From the NCBI GenBank assembly GCA_021199255.1, contig JAJQIK010000041.1, forward strand, positions 1-55,544: a stretch of 55,544 nt of DNA, in the 5' to 3' direction. This DNA comes from Clostridiales bacterium (GTDB lineage Bacteria > Bacillota > Clostridia > Lachnospirales > Lachnospiraceae). Of the stretch, positions 51,601 through 55,544 are shown piece by piece; the stretch's first letter is position 1; every line of letters begins with the position of its first letter. The position numbers and the translations under genes were made by a program. A model generated the notes under the pieces. That model was not told where the DNA came from and ran no database searches. It was given only the letters and a program-made list of their open reading frames with translations.

Positions 51601-54010
51601 CCCGGATACTCTCGCCCGACTTGATCATATTGTCAGGATCCATCGCCCATTCAAAGGGCGCGTAGCCCTCTACAATATCCCCATGGAAGGTCAGCTCACT
51701 GCTTCCGGTGGCAAAAGCGTCCTCCCCGATAGTCAGGGCGCCGTCGCCGGTATAAACCCCGCTGGCGGGGCTGGCAAAGGTGACGTCGATTAAGCTGGTG
51801 CAGCCTTCAAAAGCCTCGTCGCCGATGGACGTCACGGAATCCCCGATATATACTGTGGTCAGCTTCAGCCAGCCCTGAAATGCCCCGTCCTCAATACTGG
51901 AAAGCTTACCGCCGTCCTCGATAGTCAAAGTACGAACCGCCTGATTAAACTCATCATCAGAGAAGCAATCCGACGCAATCCCGGTGACCGTGGTATTTCC
52001 TACCGTCGAGGGAATCACCAGGTCGATGCTGCTGGTACTCGTCGCGTTGGGGCTGAAGGTACAGGAGGTTAAAACGCCGTCCTCGTCGATACAAAGCAGA
52101 TAATCCCCATCGCTGACTTCATAATATTCTACCCCGTTTTCCACATACAGATAGGGCACCACATCCGATACCGCCGTCACTGCTGTCCAGGTACTCGTGC
52201 GCGGATAAGCGTACGCTCCGCCGGAGGTGGTCTTAGGACCCTTGACATAGAAATTGGAGTTCGTCACATCAGAAAACAGGCCCGCGGTCGTCACCACACC
52301 CTTGTTGTTGTCGCGGGCACCGCCCTCATACTTGGCCAGACTGCCCCCATAGAGATTGTTGGTCTCATCGGCAGGGAACTCCACATACTGCAGGTTCACA
52401 CAGCCGTGGAACATGGCTACCGGTACGGTGACCATGGTACTGGTACCATAATTTCTGGGGAATACCACGCTGCCTAAGCTGGTCCTGCCGGCAAACATAT
52501 AGTTCCCAATGCTGTCACTGGAAGACATACAGTTTGTCGACGTCCCCTGGGGAAAGGTAATATCCAGCGCCGCCCCGCCTGAGGCCACGGCAAAAGCGCC
52601 CGCGCCAATGGAAGTGATTACGGCGTCGGACATTTCCACGGAGGTCAGCGCCGAGCAATTATAAAACGCATAATCCCCTATGACGCAGCCCTGGGTAAGA
52701 GAGTCCAAATCAACGGTAGTTAACTTCGTACAATCAGCAAACGCCCCATAACCGATCTCGGTTAACGCCGTGGGCAGGGTGATGCTGGTGATGGCGGTAT
52801 TATAAAAACATTCGTTCCCTATGGTTGCGACGGCCTGGCTCATCTCCACAGAGGCCAGCCTGGTACAGCCCTTAAACGCCCTGTTGCCAATATTGGTAAC
52901 GCTCTTCAGATTCACTGAGGTCAGCATGGTAGCACCGGAAAAGGCGTCGTCCCCGATATACAAAATGTTGGGAATCGTCATACTCTCTACCTGGCTGACC
53001 CCCTCAAAGGTGCTATCGCCAATGCCGACCATGACTACATCGCTGGTGGTTTTCACCAGAAAGCCGTAATCGTCCTCGGTAGAACCGGTAGTAAGCGTTG
53101 CGCTGCCGTCGTCATACGCCACATAAATCGTGCCGCTGCTGCCTGGCGTACTGTTCTGTACACTGACCAGCGTAAAACCGCTTCCGAACTTCGACAAGGC
53201 AGTATCATTATCGCAATAAAACCGCAGCTTCTGCGCTTCTGTCAAATCGCTGGCAGGAATGGAAGTTAACGCGTTAGGCGCACTATCGCCGCCATTCTTT
53301 TTATATGTTTCAAATTCTGTTATTTTCGCATTCCAAACTGAAGAATTATTTACCGAATAATAGTTTTCAAAATAATTATTGATGACAGTGTTGGTGCCAT
53401 AAGCATTATTCCAATCATTATATGTATATTCCAAGCTTTGGGTAGGGTCAAAGCTGTTCGTCATACCGCTCAGCGCGCTGCTATGGGCGTCGCTATCACT
53501 TGTACTGTAATAGTTGGTGTACTTCGTAGTTGTTACCGTATAATACTCCTCATTCATAATTTCCGGGAAGGTCAGTTCAGAGGTCAGGTACAGATTATTA
53601 TATTTGCAGACGATCCCCCTAGTTACACTGCTGATCGTGACCGTATAATACATAAACTGCCAGCTCATTTCATAGCCGCCGCTGTCCATCTGGCGCATCG
53701 ATAAGGACATTTTAACATCATTATAACTACCGCCCACATTTGCTATCAAATCATCAGCGGAAACATTGGCGTATTTGTCAAGCTTTACACTTGAACCCAG
53801 CAAATCACTTGCGTCACTGGCATCATATCCAAAATCCTCCATGTCATGCAGATCCGTTGATTCGGTAGTTTCCTCACCGTCTGCATAGTTTTCCGGCACA
53901 GGCACAGCGGCAATCACGATTGCCGTAATCATTAAAACGGCCGCAAGGCTCCGCCTTACGCTTCTCTTTAATCTTCTCTTCGTTTTCCTGATTGGTGTTT
54001 TCCTGGACAT
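48647..54010 (-). CDS. Giant BspA-type leucine-rich-repeat surface protein with InlB-type repeats
   Basis: This 1787-residue secreted protein has an N-terminal basic signal peptide (RRSLAAVLMITAIVIAAVPV). Leucine-rich repeats of BspA type lie at about 330-500 and 680-780, with a further block at 1100-1290 (DVTFASPASGVY, LTSVEMSDAVITSIGAGAF). Three InlB/Listeria-Bacteroides-type repeats follow (WTVMFLDAEGQQ, YVVEFYDGIDGSQIGSTQY, YVVTVINGSGSG). A Ser/Thr-rich linker at 49536-49640 lies between the last two. The C terminus carries the same domain as its neighbour, then TPQTGDPIHPKWFL, a membrane helix and Lys residues. The ATG at 54010 has AAGGAGAG. Likely role: adhesion to host or other cells (inference). 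No cohesin, dockerin or enzyme domain was seen. Confidence 0.87.
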   Translation of the reverse strand: MSRKTPIRKTKRRLKRSVRRSLAAVLMITAIVIAAVPVPENYADGEETTESTDLHDMEDFGYDASDASDLLGSSVKLDKYANVSADDLIANVGGSYNDVKMSLSMRQMDSGGYEMSWQFMYYTVTISSVTRGIVCKYNNLYLTSELTFPEIMNEEYYTVTTTKYTNYYSTSDSDAHSSALSGMTNSFDPTQSLEYTYNDWNNAYGTNTVINNYFENYYSVNNSSVWNAKITEFETYKKNGGDSAPNALTSIPASDLTEAQKLRFYCDNDTALSKFGSGFTLVSVQNSTPGSSGTIYVAYDDGSATLTTGSTEDDYGFLVKTTSDVVMVGIGDSTFEGVSQVESMTIPNILYIGDDAFSGATMLTSVNLKSVTNIGNRAFKGCTRLASVEMSQAVATIGNECFYNTAITSITLPTALTEIGYGAFADCTKLTTVDLDSLTQGCVIGDYAFYNCSALTSVEMSDAVITSIGAGAFAVASGGAALDITFPQGTSTNCMSSSDSIGNYMFAGRTSLGSVVFPRNYGTSTMVTVPVAMFHGCVNLQYVEFPADETNNLYGGSLAKYEGGARDNNKGVVTTAGLFSDVTNSNFYVKGPKTTSGGAYAYPRTSTWTAVTAVSDVVPYLYVENGVEYYEVSDGDYLLCIDEDGVLTSCTFSPNATSTSSIDLVIPSTVGNTTVTGIASDCFSDDEFNQAVRTLTIEDGGKLSSIEDGAFQGWLKLTTVYIGDSVTSIGDEAFEGCTSLIDVTFASPASGVYTGDGALTIGEDAFATGSSELTFHGDIVEGYAPFEWAMDPDNMIKSGESIRVCYRSLFPTCLTVMYNPNTELVTLLDYPKYDQISDLLNEAYAAQIKAGGYGTYETMMESRYYTAYADSYYDTYRVAFAALWNDTNGDTDAEASAYASDYYGPWINEDFCDDWDNWVSGAPSARTSGGASSGTLASAGTAGQLASHTVNTLLDWLFEPITVYAKSNSPQAYYDKDPYDVIENQVLYAAGDQYRAPTEDESNLIYATQNIVVPAGVGSIDVYGYYKNYTADGSAGSYSNGLNITTYLSGKIWDTDTYKMYISSTAGSDDTETVPGLFSGYYVDYDDTSSEYETATRGNDWITSVTLNSVEYLPDYAFDSCERLQYVILGDDCADIGTSPFRGCYALQTVSNNDYYTTENGIVYSVNTDGSYTIEECLASRGKLVGAAIVSLTNDPNLENVSEIKASAFEDCDYITTVDLSTTAGLATIPEDCFKDCDSLQTVVLPRTVNYIESGAFAGADKLSSLTIYGTEVYIAGDAFEEDTDKVTTTVYAYEDSSAERYVDDNGTVYKLQYSALSGVWTVMFLDAEGQQAADTQYVEDGAYADDPDVDLDTDTWTFTGWLGTNNTLITDKIYENTIFIAQGYSTSGMVNGKYVVEFYDGIDGSQIGSTQYIEPGEDAIAPQAATHTGYTFSKWSDTYTNIQSNKTIMALYTATSGSSSTTTTTTSSSSSATSSTTSSSTSSSTSSTSSETSSTEQYVVTVINGSGSGSYAAGTTVIITANTPASGQVFSKWTTDSTGVTLASVSLSPTTFTMPSNNVTITAEFTDSTASSTAAGTTSTGTATTSTGTGTDSGNTRVDITKPGISNKDLATANVNGSTDNFVIKISETDEATQAVAAALTNKYESLENILYYAMDITLWDSTGTYQLTEAQTEGLTVDITIPIPDALVAYGGNNMAGAVINDNQLENLNENFTTINGVPCIRFTATHFSPYTIYVDTGNLTEGMLDVTPQTGDPIHPKWFLSIGLACLSIILFMKKDKNVTPKTA

Positions 54011-54845
54011 GGTATCTCTCCTTACTCCCCTTGGTTATGATTCGGTCATTGAAAAACTCATTTATAATGCTGTCTTCATTGTGCAAATTGCATCAGCATA
54101 AGCAGACCCTTTGGAAACGTCGCGCAAGCGCGCCTGTGTTGATGATACAATTGTACAATTCACAAGCAAGTATACGTTTCGCAATCACTTTCCTGGTTAT
54201 GATGATTATGGTCAGTAATCGAGGAACTTTTCATCATACTCAAAGCGCTTATGAAATTGCTCCTATGTAAGCACGCTTATAAATCGTGCGGGATAAATCT
54301 TGTAACCTTATAAAACGATATTGACAATATCAGAATCATGGAATCCTGCGCTATCAATCATTTGCCAGATGGATCGCGTCAAACAACTCCTGTAAAATAA
54401 TTTATGCGAACGCATCGGCTCCCTGGGAACGCCAAACCACCGCCCTCCACAGTTTTTCATGCCGAAGAAACAGTGAACCAGTCCCTTCTTTTCGGTTCTT
54501 ACAGTCTGATATGCTTCCCAATAAAATATCCTCATATATATATCGGCAAATATCCTAAACCGGCTTAGTTTTTTCGCCACAATAAGCCTATGGTATTTTG
54601 TTCACATACATTTTTATTTTATCATATGCCAAGATTAATGCAAGCATTTAGTTTTGAAAGCATCTCTGGAAAATGTCTCTATACGTCGCCAGAACCTCTA
54701 AAGCATCTTAGAAAACATTTTAGAAAATTGTTTTGAGCGCTTTTCAGAAAGCTCTTTTATGGTAAATGTATTTTTTTTGAGGAAAACGTTTTCTGCAATA
54801 CTGCTTAAAGCTTTCGCAAAATTTAACCCATACTAATCCTTCATT
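54011..54845. other. Gene-free leader region before the giant surface protein gene
   Basis: No believable gene was found on either strand here. Seen are palindromes AATTGTACAATT (54149-54160), TGCAA-A-TTGCA just after 54080 and GATATTG-A-CAATATC (54317-54331). A possible promoter lies at 54299-54327 (next entry). The stretch 54590-54840 is AT-rich with runs of T and a GAAAACGTTTTC palindrome at 54782-54793. Confidence 0.5.
54299..54327 (-). promoter_or_regulatory. Possible promoter of the giant surface protein gene
   Basis: On the minus strand TTGTCA (54327-54322), a 17-base spacer and TACAAG (54304-54299) could act as a promoter, giving a leader of about 280 bases. The -35 box lies inside the 15-base palindrome GATATTG-A-CAATATC, which could be an operator. 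Confidence 0.35.
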
Positions 54846-54928
54846 CCGGAGCGTATGCGACGGGGCGACGCAAATGTCAGATTTGCGTCTGCCATCAATC
54901 AAATTTGTGACACTCCGGCACAATATTT
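54846..54928. repeat. Pseudoknot-forming element, copy 1
   Basis: Plus-strand order: arm A CCGGAG (54846-54851), joint with GCGACGGGGC, hairpin C GACGCAAAT/ATTTGCGTC (54867-54889, 5-base loop), the box CGTCTGCCATCA (54886-54897), arm B AAATTTGTG (54901-54909), arm A' CTCCGG (54913-54918), arm B' CACAATATTT (54919-54928). A pairs with A' and B with B', which cross, so the whole forms a pseudoknot. The active strand is unknown. On the minus strand the box reads TGATGGCAGACG. Confidence 0.65.
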
Positions 54929-54931
54929 GTA

Positions 54932-54950
54932 AATCCTCTTTCAGAGGATT
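54932..54950. repeat. Perfect hairpin between the two pseudoknot elements
   Basis: AATCCTCT (54932-54939) and AGAGGATT (54943-54950) form 8 perfect pairs around TTC. It abuts the next hairpin directly. Confidence 0.75.
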
Positions 54951-54984
54951 GTGAAAAATCAGTGCATCAGCATGATTTTTTCAC
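54951..54984. repeat. Second hairpin between the pseudoknot elements
   Basis: GTGAAAAATCA (54951-54961) and TGATTTTTTCAC (54973-54984) form 11 pairs with one bulged T around an 11-base loop. Confidence 0.72.
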
Positions 54985-54995
54985 ACTAATCTCCA

Positions 54996-55094
54996 TTTCT
55001 GAGCAACTTGTTGCGAAGCGGCGGCGAGAAATCCGCGAAGGCGGTTTCTCGTCTGCCATCAGGGCTATTTGCTTTCGCTCAGAAACAAATAGCC
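54996..55094. repeat. Pseudoknot-forming element, copy 2
   Basis: Same order as copy 1: arm A TTTCTGAGC (54996-55004), joint with GCGAAGCGGCGG, hairpin C CGAGAAA-T-CCGC/GCGG-TTTCTCG (55025-55051, 4-base loop), the box CGTCTGCCATCA (55050-55061), arm B GGCTATTTG (55063-55071), arm A' GCTCAGAAA (55077-55085), arm B' CAAATAGCC (55086-55094). All arms differ in sequence from copy 1, yet the crossing pairs A-A' and B-B' are each perfect over 9 bases. Confidence 0.68.
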
Positions 55095-55107
55095 AAATCC
55101 ACTTCTT

Positions 55108-55177
55108 CCATATTATATTATTATATATATGCCCATGAATCATGCTTACATGAATCAACGGGCATATAATGATATGG
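55108..55177. repeat. Long imperfect hairpin next to copy 2
   Basis: CCATAT...TATGCCC-ATGA-A-TCATG, a 4-base loop, and CATGA-A-TCAAC-GGGCATA...ATATGG pair imperfectly over about 70 bases. It may act as a factor-independent stop for the gene to the right, though no T run follows. Confidence 0.55.
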
Positions 55178-55266
55178 GCTGAAGCCTGTACCTTGTGGGT
55201 ATCTTCCTTATGGCCATATCTTTCATTGAAACTCTTAACCAAGTCAGCGCGCCGGCCTACGCCTCA

Positions 55267-55544
55267 CTAATTCTGCTGCCTTACGTCATGCAGTTCCTCA
55301 CAGATCCGGCGGATATTCTCCAAGGGCTCTTCCAGTTCTTCCGCAATAGCCGCCACGTCCTTACCCTTCTCAAGCTTCCTGCGCACCTGTTCTTGCAGCT
55401 TCTGCTGCTGTCCGGCGGCTATACCTTCCTGTTTTCCGATTTCTATGCCCTCCTGTTTTCCGGCCTCTATTCCTTCCCTTCTTCCCGCTTCTATCCCTTC
55501 CTGTCTCCCGATTTCCCTTTCGTCCTGGCGGATCACCTTCATTA
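55267..55544 (-). CDS. C-terminal end of an Rpn-family nuclease/transposase-like protein (partial)
   Basis: Only the last 91 or so codons are in the window; the frame is open to the right edge. The visible part is the tail usual for Rpn/PD-(D/E)XK recombination-promoting proteins: 8-residue repeats of the form G(R/K)(Q/R)EGIEA (GRQEGIEA, GRREGIEA, GKQEGIEI, GKQEGIAA). A helical end follows (QEQVRRKLEKGKDVAAIAEELEEPLENIRRICEEL). The nuclease domain would lie beyond 55544, so the family call rests on the tail alone. Such genes are frequent and repeated in Lachnospiraceae. Confidence 0.6.
   Translation of the reverse strand, partial: MKVIRQDEREIGRQEGIEAGRREGIEAGKQEGIEIGKQEGIAAGQQQKLQEQVRRKLEKGKDVAAIAEELEEPLENIRRICEELHDVRQQN

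Follow-up and report, generated by a model that had tools for sequence, protein, structure and literature searches.

Dispersed pseudoknotted repeats of gut bacteria, probably mobile, in the spacer between Shine-Dalgarno sequence and start codon

Introduction

Among the closest described systems, the BOX, RUP and SPRITE repeats of Streptococcus pneumoniae are short, dispersed, structured, intergenic and non-autonomous. According to the passages of that study drawn on here, BOX elements are modular, some pneumococcal repeats are co-transcribed with neighbouring genes, and positions downstream of genes are more tolerant of insertion than upstream positions or the gaps between co-transcribed genes, SPRITE being the most enriched downstream (PMC3049150). 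The repeats bcr1 to bcr18 of the Bacillus cereus group are likewise intergenic Firmicute repeats, some with conserved RNA structure; in the portions of the report considered, 84 of 165 and 62 of 155 copies in two strains lie in mRNAs, either as UTRs or between operon genes (PMC3446304). REPs are hairpins of 20-40 bp with an unpaired GTAG or CGTC tag (excerpts of PMC3116915 and PMC3733652), and those of the CGTC type are described, in the excerpted text, as having no known dedicated transposase (PMC3733652).

Here, a computational analysis was made of a 55,544-nt stretch of contig JAJQIK010000041.1 from a Clostridiales bacterium (assembly GCA_021199255.1), referred to as the window; the genome to which it belongs is called the source genome. 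An earlier note had described two elements with a common order of arms, at 54846-54928 and 54996-55094, and re-reading of the sequence confirmed the two elements, the order of their arms and these coordinates. Sequence comparison places both elements in an extensive family of short repeats, dispersed in the genomes of gut bacteria.

Results

The earlier note had implied that the plus strand is the sense strand. Read in the opposite direction, most copies of the family finish with a Shine-Dalgarno-like sequence, immediately after which comes a start codon, and the minus strand of the window is therefore taken as the likely functional direction. Read on that strand, the unit is non-coding, is about 150-170 nt long, and comprises hairpin T, an optional small hairpin, hairpin B with strand A′ in its loop, a conserved box with hairpin C, a joint, strand A and the terminal sequence AATGGAGATTA, also written GGAGATTA. 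Strand A′ pairs with the distant strand A, forming a pseudoknot that encloses hairpin C. A well-preserved hairpin T reads GTGTGAAAAATCACAC-TGAT-GTG-C-TGATTTTTCACAC or a variant of it, and is followed by the small extra hairpin in many copies of the source genome. The box, TGATGGCAGACG on the minus strand, adjoins hairpin C, and the joint leading from C to A contains TCGC. The earlier note had described a joint containing GCGA-G-GGC; this stretch comprises the 3′ side of hairpin C together with the joint from C to A. The unit also includes two hairpins that lie between the window copies, namely hairpin T, 36 nt long (54951-54986), and a small one.

Covariance model R1 matched both elements on the minus strand of the window, at 54990-55100 (94.3 bits) and 54838-54936 (89.1 bits), both window copies being among the 24 aligned rows from which R1 was built; a third match (12.7 bits, E 0.25) is noise. 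The upstream unit, first in the minus-strand reading, spans 54986-55100 and consists of hairpin B (55063-55094; arms 55086-55094 and 55063-55071, loop strand A′ 55077-55085), the box TGATGGCAGACG (55050-55061), hairpin C (55020-55057), strand A (54996-55004), which forms the crossing helix with A′, and the Shine-Dalgarno-like 3′ end AATGGAGATTAG (54986-54997), which doubles as the 5′ flank of the next unit. No hairpin T was recognised in the 200 nt before it. The downstream unit (54833-54986) abuts this 3′ end, completing a tandem pair, and does begin with hairpin T (54951-54986), which was found by pattern search with two mismatches and is supported by stem covariation. There follow the small optional hairpin AATCCTCTGAAAGAGGATT (about 54932-54950), similar to an insert in several copies of the source genome, hairpin B (54900-54929; imperfect arms 54919-54929 and 54900-54909, loop strand A′ 54913-54918), the box TGATGGCAGACG (54886-54897), hairpin C (54862-54893), strand A (54846-54851), whose partner is A′ at 54913-54918, and the Shine-Dalgarno-like 3′ end AATGAAGGATTAG (54833-54845). 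These minus-strand features were assigned from pairing statistics (upstream B, both hairpins C and both strands A), from box pattern searches, or by reading of the sequence (downstream B, the small hairpin and both 3′ ends). By the same reading, an ATG at 54829-54831 follows the downstream unit and runs directly into GGT TAA, so that this unit serves no gene at present; in the start-codon test given below, neither window copy has a directly following gene.

Of the neighbouring genes, the one named a giant adhesin in the earlier note encodes a BspA-type leucine-rich-repeat protein (PF13306), and Rpn identity was not confirmed for the other, a 91-aa ORF at 55267-55542 that scored below the family cut-off in Pfam. 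A second, unrelated repeat, with the motifs CATAAGCAG...TTTGGAAACGTCG, ...GATACAATT... and ...TTTCGCAAT, was seen by eye at about 54075-54185 of the window, in the stretch downstream of locus L022 and in L275 (the galK-galT locus of genome G006); it occurs both near elements and elsewhere in the source genome and related genomes.

Several copies of the source genome depart from the common architecture. Arm types are mixed between some of them, as judged by eye. In the copy at L024:1463-1572, hairpin B carries its loop as the reverse complement, which makes A′ equal to A and leaves the two unpaired, and in five copies (L007, L022, L035, L367 and L372) a longer joint hairpin of the AAGCGTCGTACCGACGCTTTT type precedes strand A as a third A-module. 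The joint before A (columns 90-101 of alignment A1) could also form a small hairpin overlapping A (GCGUAAACGC, GCAACAAGUUGC, GCGACAAGUCGC), in competition with the crossing helix; some of its changes, uncounted, are compensatory.

The box CGTCTGCCATCA is present in 40 exact copies in the 3.08-Mb source genome, as opposed to none for the reversed pattern, which, together with the pairing statistics, places the family beyond chance; in the window alone, the nine box matches at up to two mismatches, set against 5.1 expected, are not unusual. Near-identical copies lie at many unrelated sites of this genome. In a first sample of relatives, the box was found in 24 of 61 genomes, where many single matches look by eye like coding coincidences. 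A covariance-model search built from the copies, as the earlier note had proposed, recovered many copies from relatives in this Lachnospiraceae genus: R1 detected the family in 48 of 77 genomes (E <= 0.001), with up to at least 53 matches per genome, up to 53 candidates being scored in each. Across the order, where up to 13 candidates were scored per genome, 13 of 295 sampled genomes were positive, two from the same genus, six from four other genera of the family and five from two genera of a second family. Among the matches listed for the core pattern (80 of 110 stretches), record titles include Lachnospiraceae, Acetatifactor, Roseburia and others, as well as a few MAG titles of distant groups; the record titled Chloroflexia (L139) had no R1 match and is probably a chance match to the core pattern. 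Bacterium C-53 and Lachnospiraceae bacterium 10-1, both listed there, were matched by R1 as well. Searches for carriage by phages returned no match to the exact core pattern in viral contigs, and plasmids gave only one 25-base match (E 0.8).

Covariation supports all three helices of the core. In 181 unique copies (198 unique rows less 17 with at least 12 gaps), the crossing helix A-A′ was paired in 93% of cells, as against at most 38.5% in eight other registers, and helices B and C were paired in 95.9% and 97.4-99.4% of cells, respectively. All eight core A-A′ pairs were intact in 120 of the 181, compared with 37.9% when partners were shuffled. Copies without the crossing pairs, which the earlier note had named as evidence against its fold, do exist, but as a minority: in 13 of 181 the helix is largely lost (four or fewer of eight core pairs). 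With 103 distinct rows, pairing in the three helices reached 94.0% of cells, and both sides had changed in 21 of 31 pairs. None of 500 shuffles equalled the observed value for any of five measures, and pairing fell to 44.2% or less once the partner strands were slid; with the 24-row alignment, four of the five measures lay beyond all 500 shuffles, and further pair types were reached by 87 of 500. Hairpin T was assessed in 144 of 151 copies, those in which 10 or more of its 13 pairs form; they show 64 distinct stems, 94.5% paired versus 81.8% when shuffled, and the first of these figures is raised by this selection. These covariation tests ignore kinship, and two arm types dominate A and A′, namely CCGGAGCG with CGCTCCGG and TTTCTGAGC with GCTCAGAAA; further compensated variants include GGAGCAT with ATGCTCC and CTGGAGCG with CGCTCCAG. 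The pseudoknotted fold that the earlier note had drawn from two copies is thus upheld by compensatory changes in many more.

Counted on the minus strand, G-U versus A-C cells numbered 98/35 in A, 42/20 in B, 10/38 in C and 19/29 in T, favouring this strand in A and B and not in C or T; since the wobble evidence is mixed, the choice of strand rests on the position of start codons. Strand A contains CUCC or CUC, which is able to pair with the GGAG of the element, and a local A/GGAG hairpin was computed at -4.9 kcal/mol in L056, L067, L161 and L063 and at -1.2 kcal/mol in L006 and L037. A folding switch acting on the Shine-Dalgarno sequence was considered and set aside: nested folds of ten copies (with A′ misassigned for L063) were inconsistent and revealed no uniform effect on exposure.

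The earlier note had been unable to match the fold to a known RNA and had counted an Rfam hit as evidence against it. Rfam 15 likewise gave no match in the window at the gathering threshold, none at E <= 5 in 52001-55544 and none at E <= 1 in five loci with other copies. HDV-like ribozymes are nested double pseudoknots with a helix P3; in the present element only a few nucleotides separate A′ from the 3′ strand of B, leaving no P3, and this topology was therefore dropped, Rfam again giving no match.

Among 194 of 206 copies (the other 12 having less than 200 nt downstream), an ATG, GTG or TTG opening at least 50 codons lay within 14 nt of the model end in 151, compared with 24.6% of random positions at the loci on the same strand and 14.1% on the other, and in 114 of these 151 the start codon was at offset 5; in 43 of 194, both window copies among them, no such start codon follows the element directly. 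On the 5′ side, 137 copies were considered after 14 tandem ones had been left out of 151. A Shine-Dalgarno-like 4-mer stands at -14 to -4 in 107 of them, versus 15 at -25 to -15, and the flank at -3 to -1 reads TAG (T 85%, A 88%, G 93%). In 106 of 144 hairpin T stems, the G that closes this flank is paired with the terminal C of the hairpin, so that the unit probably begins at this G. Of 145 copies (out of the 151 bearing T), 102 have the end of a same-strand ORF no more than 80 nt upstream, as against 28% at random positions, and in 24 copies the last three bases of the flank are themselves the upstream stop codon (23 TAG, 1 TAA). With start codons after it and a Shine-Dalgarno-like flank and an ORF stop before it, the unit thus tends to lie in operons, between Shine-Dalgarno sequence and start. 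At the dnaN-yaaA site of the source genome a start codon follows the unit, but the start conserved with relatives lies some 30 nt beyond, as judged by eye.

Of the 151 copies with hairpin T, 136 have an NTG where that hairpin begins. The original Shine-Dalgarno-like flank now faces this codon, so that translation from it may yield short peptides, and in 43 of the 136 the frame closes near the point where the unit ends downstream. A peptide beginning in hairpin T was nevertheless rejected as the purpose of the unit: ORF lengths fall into several classes and the frame differs, by eye, between types, so that any such product is probably a by-product.

From the 133 copies that have an ORF of 80 codons or more, 20 were selected for identification of the downstream genes, which include those for GatB, D-Tyr-tRNA deacylase, GalT, a carbamoyltransferase, isocitrate/isopropylmalate dehydrogenase and Hsp33; two of the 20 are ketopantoate-reductase-like, and there is otherwise no common theme. 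This diversity argues against a regulon, which is considered unlikely.

To follow the presence of the element between relatives, 30 loci were compared, out of all matched genomes, at each of two sites (dnaN, yaaA, galK and trpG were named by eye from sequence, and GalT was confirmed by Pfam). At dnaN-yaaA, the copy of the source genome was absent from 28 of 29 other loci, and the one exception (G098) holds a deletion derivative. At galK-galT, it was absent from 26 of 29, the remaining three being a full unit in G095, a divergent short relative in G036 and one ambiguous case. The short relatives at these two sites (L251 in G098 and L255 in G036) lack hairpin C and consist of hairpin T plus B or A and the Shine-Dalgarno end. 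A third hairpin repeat, of the GAAGTTCTAA ... AAGAACTTCTA type, was seen by eye in the same intergenes of several relatives (L238, L241, L242 and L252 at dnaN-yaaA; L266 at galK-galT).

Base-by-base alignment covered one close empty site. In G095, tandem units precede a gene with an AIR-carboxylase domain, and the corresponding region of G012, 86-88% identical, is without them: the filled site reads TTTGGGGATTAG, two units, then GGGGGTTAAAATGCAAAG (also given as GGGGGTTAAAATG), and the empty one TTTGGAGGGAGCCAAAATGCAAAG (also given as TTTGGAGGGAGCCAAAATG). The same flanks lie close together in G010, G097 and G098, as judged by coordinates only. The empty site in G012 may instead reflect loss by precise excision. 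A search from L132 for another such site gave no close match for the genes that adjoin the element. In tandem units, as in the window, the 3′ end of one is the 5′ flank of the next, an arrangement that would follow if new units can also land at the Shine-Dalgarno-like 3′ end of an existing one. The alternative already raised in the earlier note, that of a self-folding mobile repeat, is strengthened by the dispersal of the family (40 boxes; 48 of 77 genomes) and by the orthologous sites that lack it.

In the source genome, the 18-nt motif of the 3′ end (up to two mismatches) had 83 matches, and none when reversed, compared with 42 for the longer T pattern and at least 53 for the core. In the 31 stretches fetched for a script test (L384-L414; L354-L383 were printed only, and some places are common to both sets), 24 of 37 motif matches lacked both core box and T, and an open start followed 13 of those 24. 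Matched lengths from the 3′ end ranged from about 18 nt upwards, the shortest (L390, L398, L402, L403 and L404) being possibly chance, and four loci (L388, the second match of L393, L397 and L410) appear by eye to be internal deletions that keep parts of T. BLAST pieces in eight genomes, not counted by script, include shortened ones in which the 3′ end is kept.

Two kinds of enzyme were considered as movers and rejected. The Y1 transposase (PF01797) had no match in the source genome, nor was it associated with presence of the element (Fisher p 0.63); of the 17 genomes that carry at least 18 copies, 11 had no match. RVT_1 had three matches in the source genome and was not associated either (Fisher p 0.24; 10 of 17 such genomes without a match). 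Neither was found in 7 of the 17, some of these genomes being incomplete. An autonomous copy with a gene between T and B was not found in the 200 nt before 55 copies without recognised T, nor was one recognised among the copies read. The 5′ flank and the 3′ junction were compared at 14 positions in 97 non-tandem copies of the 107 at offset 5, drawn from the 151 bearing T: they were identical at -4 in 45 of 97 (30.1 when shuffled; 0 of 2000 shuffles), at -5 in 57 of 97 (6 of 2000) and at -3 in 82 of 97 (17 of 2000). This excess could be a short target duplication or leftover homology. Terminal inverted repeats were not seen by eye between the 5′ end GTGTGAAAAATC and the 3′ end CTCCGGAATGGAGATTA.

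Discussion

The family is probably one of mobile, structured elements that occupy the spacer between Shine-Dalgarno sequence and start codon and carry a replacement Shine-Dalgarno sequence. The grounds for this reading all lie in sequence: the fold, the dispersal, the place relative to start codons, the orthologous sites without the element and the sharing of ends by tandem units. A full unit typically occupies the gap that separates a gene's start codon from its Shine-Dalgarno sequence, often within an operon, and the 3′ end of the unit would supply another such sequence with normal spacing to the start codon. If ribosomes use the added sequence, the downstream gene would stay expressed, and the element, most likely a genomic parasite whose end mimics its own landing sequence, could spread in operons at low cost. 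The intact 3′ ends may, at the same time, reflect selection rather than the mode of insertion. The pseudoknot may act as RNA by keeping strand A off the Shine-Dalgarno sequence, since the CUCC or CUC of strand A could pair with GGAG and A-A′ pairing would block this, or it may act in single-stranded DNA during movement.

How the element moves is a separate matter. The likeliest route, compatible with insertion into the spacer and preferred over an RNA-mediated one, though given somewhat less than an even chance, is DNA-based: the repeat would be a MITE- or PATE-like element whose movement depends on an enzyme, transposase or site-specific recombinase, that acts in trans or has since been lost; hairpin T and the GGAGATTA end would then be its ends, a Shine-Dalgarno sequence followed by NTA its target, and the pseudoknot a fold of single-stranded DNA. 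The conserved end hairpin and the conserved 5′ flank TAG fit such an element, as would the excess of flank/junction identity at -3, -4 and -5 if it is a short target duplication; however, fewer than half of the copies match at -4, too few for plain recent duplication, and terminal inverted repeats, a Y1 match in the source genome and an autonomous copy were all not found. SINEs of eukaryotes are short non-coding repeats, often 5′-truncated and with a constant 3′ end, and a SINE-like process, in which the 3′-terminal GGAGAUUA of the transcript base-pairs with a Shine-Dalgarno site and a reverse transcriptase then makes a target-primed copy, predicts just such variable 5′ truncation and constant 3′ ends. 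The surplus of 3′-end matches (83) over hairpins T (42) and cores (at least 53), lengths from about 18 nt, the 24 of 37 motif matches without core box and T and the BLAST pieces that keep the 3′ end all agree with this prediction; yet decay under selection on the Shine-Dalgarno end would look alike and could mimic truncation, an open start follows only 13 of the 24 short matches, several of the shortest may be chance, four loci resemble internal deletions, and the family could be tied to no reverse transcriptase, RVT_1 giving no match in 10 of 17 copy-rich genomes. RNA-mediated movement is accordingly judged unlikely, and it is more doubtful still that the family is a full bacterial counterpart of SINEs, whose pseudoknotted RNA would find Shine-Dalgarno sites by its own 3′ end, be copied into the spacer and replace the ribosome-binding site.

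Copies that are truncated or internally deleted but retain the 3′ end, together with the mosaic arm types, could also be what is left of a former mobile repeat, now immobile, that is spread by gene conversion and recombination and is kept mainly as the ribosome-binding site of the gene. Near-identical copies at unrelated sites of the source genome, and a site filled in G095 and empty in G012, suggest instead movement after the split of those species, and a repeat of this immobile kind is judged unlikely. Least probable of the readings weighed here is a cis-regulatory RNA, riboswitch- or leader-like, which would control a regulon by hiding or exposing the Shine-Dalgarno sequence: a conserved pseudoknot does stand right before a Shine-Dalgarno-like sequence, with a CUCC or CUC in A that can pair with GGAG, but the sites are lineage-specific, units occur in tandem, arm types are mixed, the 20 downstream genes share no theme and Rfam gave no match.

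Should the family indeed be mobile and insert in this spacer, a spare ribosome-binding site suggests how a parasitic element could spread in operons without great harm to its host. Copies lie before the GatB and GalT genes, and the ribosome-binding sites of many genes in one genome could derive from a single repeat. With dozens of copies in some genomes, effects on translation, operon coupling and RNA stability are directly testable, and the pseudoknot is a covariation-supported RNA target for probing.

Compared with known systems, the family falls within the broad class of bacterial small interspersed repeats, being short and non-coding, with near-identical copies at unrelated sites and sites that are empty in relatives. 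No description of it was found in the open-access literature. Of specific kinds considered, a MITE of a DDE transposon (RUP-like) was rejected in that terminal inverted repeats were not found, and a REP/REPIN with RAYT, or an IS200/IS605-derived MITE, in that Y1 (PF01797) has no match in the source genome and units are about 150-170 nt long. REP/REPIN systems with RAYT nevertheless resemble the family as short palindromic dispersed repeats, to go by the parts of the source used (PMC3116915). The CGTC-tagged REP was set aside as well: its tag, in the account available, is an unpaired terminal CGTC on an 8-9 bp hairpin (PMC3733652), whereas CGTC here lies in the paired stem of hairpin C. The bcr repeats are set apart by description, with sequences uncompared, in that the portions of the report considered give them no fixed place between Shine-Dalgarno sequence and start (PMC3446304). 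The modularity of BOX resembles the mixed arm types seen here, but BOX and RUP end in inverted repeats and duplicate their target sites, and inverted ends were not seen in this family; the passages of that paper drawn on contain no 'pseudoknot', and their one mention of 'Shine-Dalgarno' concerns BOX-encoded ORFs that lack one (PMC3049150). From the placement reported in the same passages, repeats would be expected to avoid sites just before the starts of co-transcribed genes, whereas copies of this family sit just before start codons (PMC3049150). It is the crossing pairs, together with the place between Shine-Dalgarno sequence and start codon, that distinguish this family from the known kinds.
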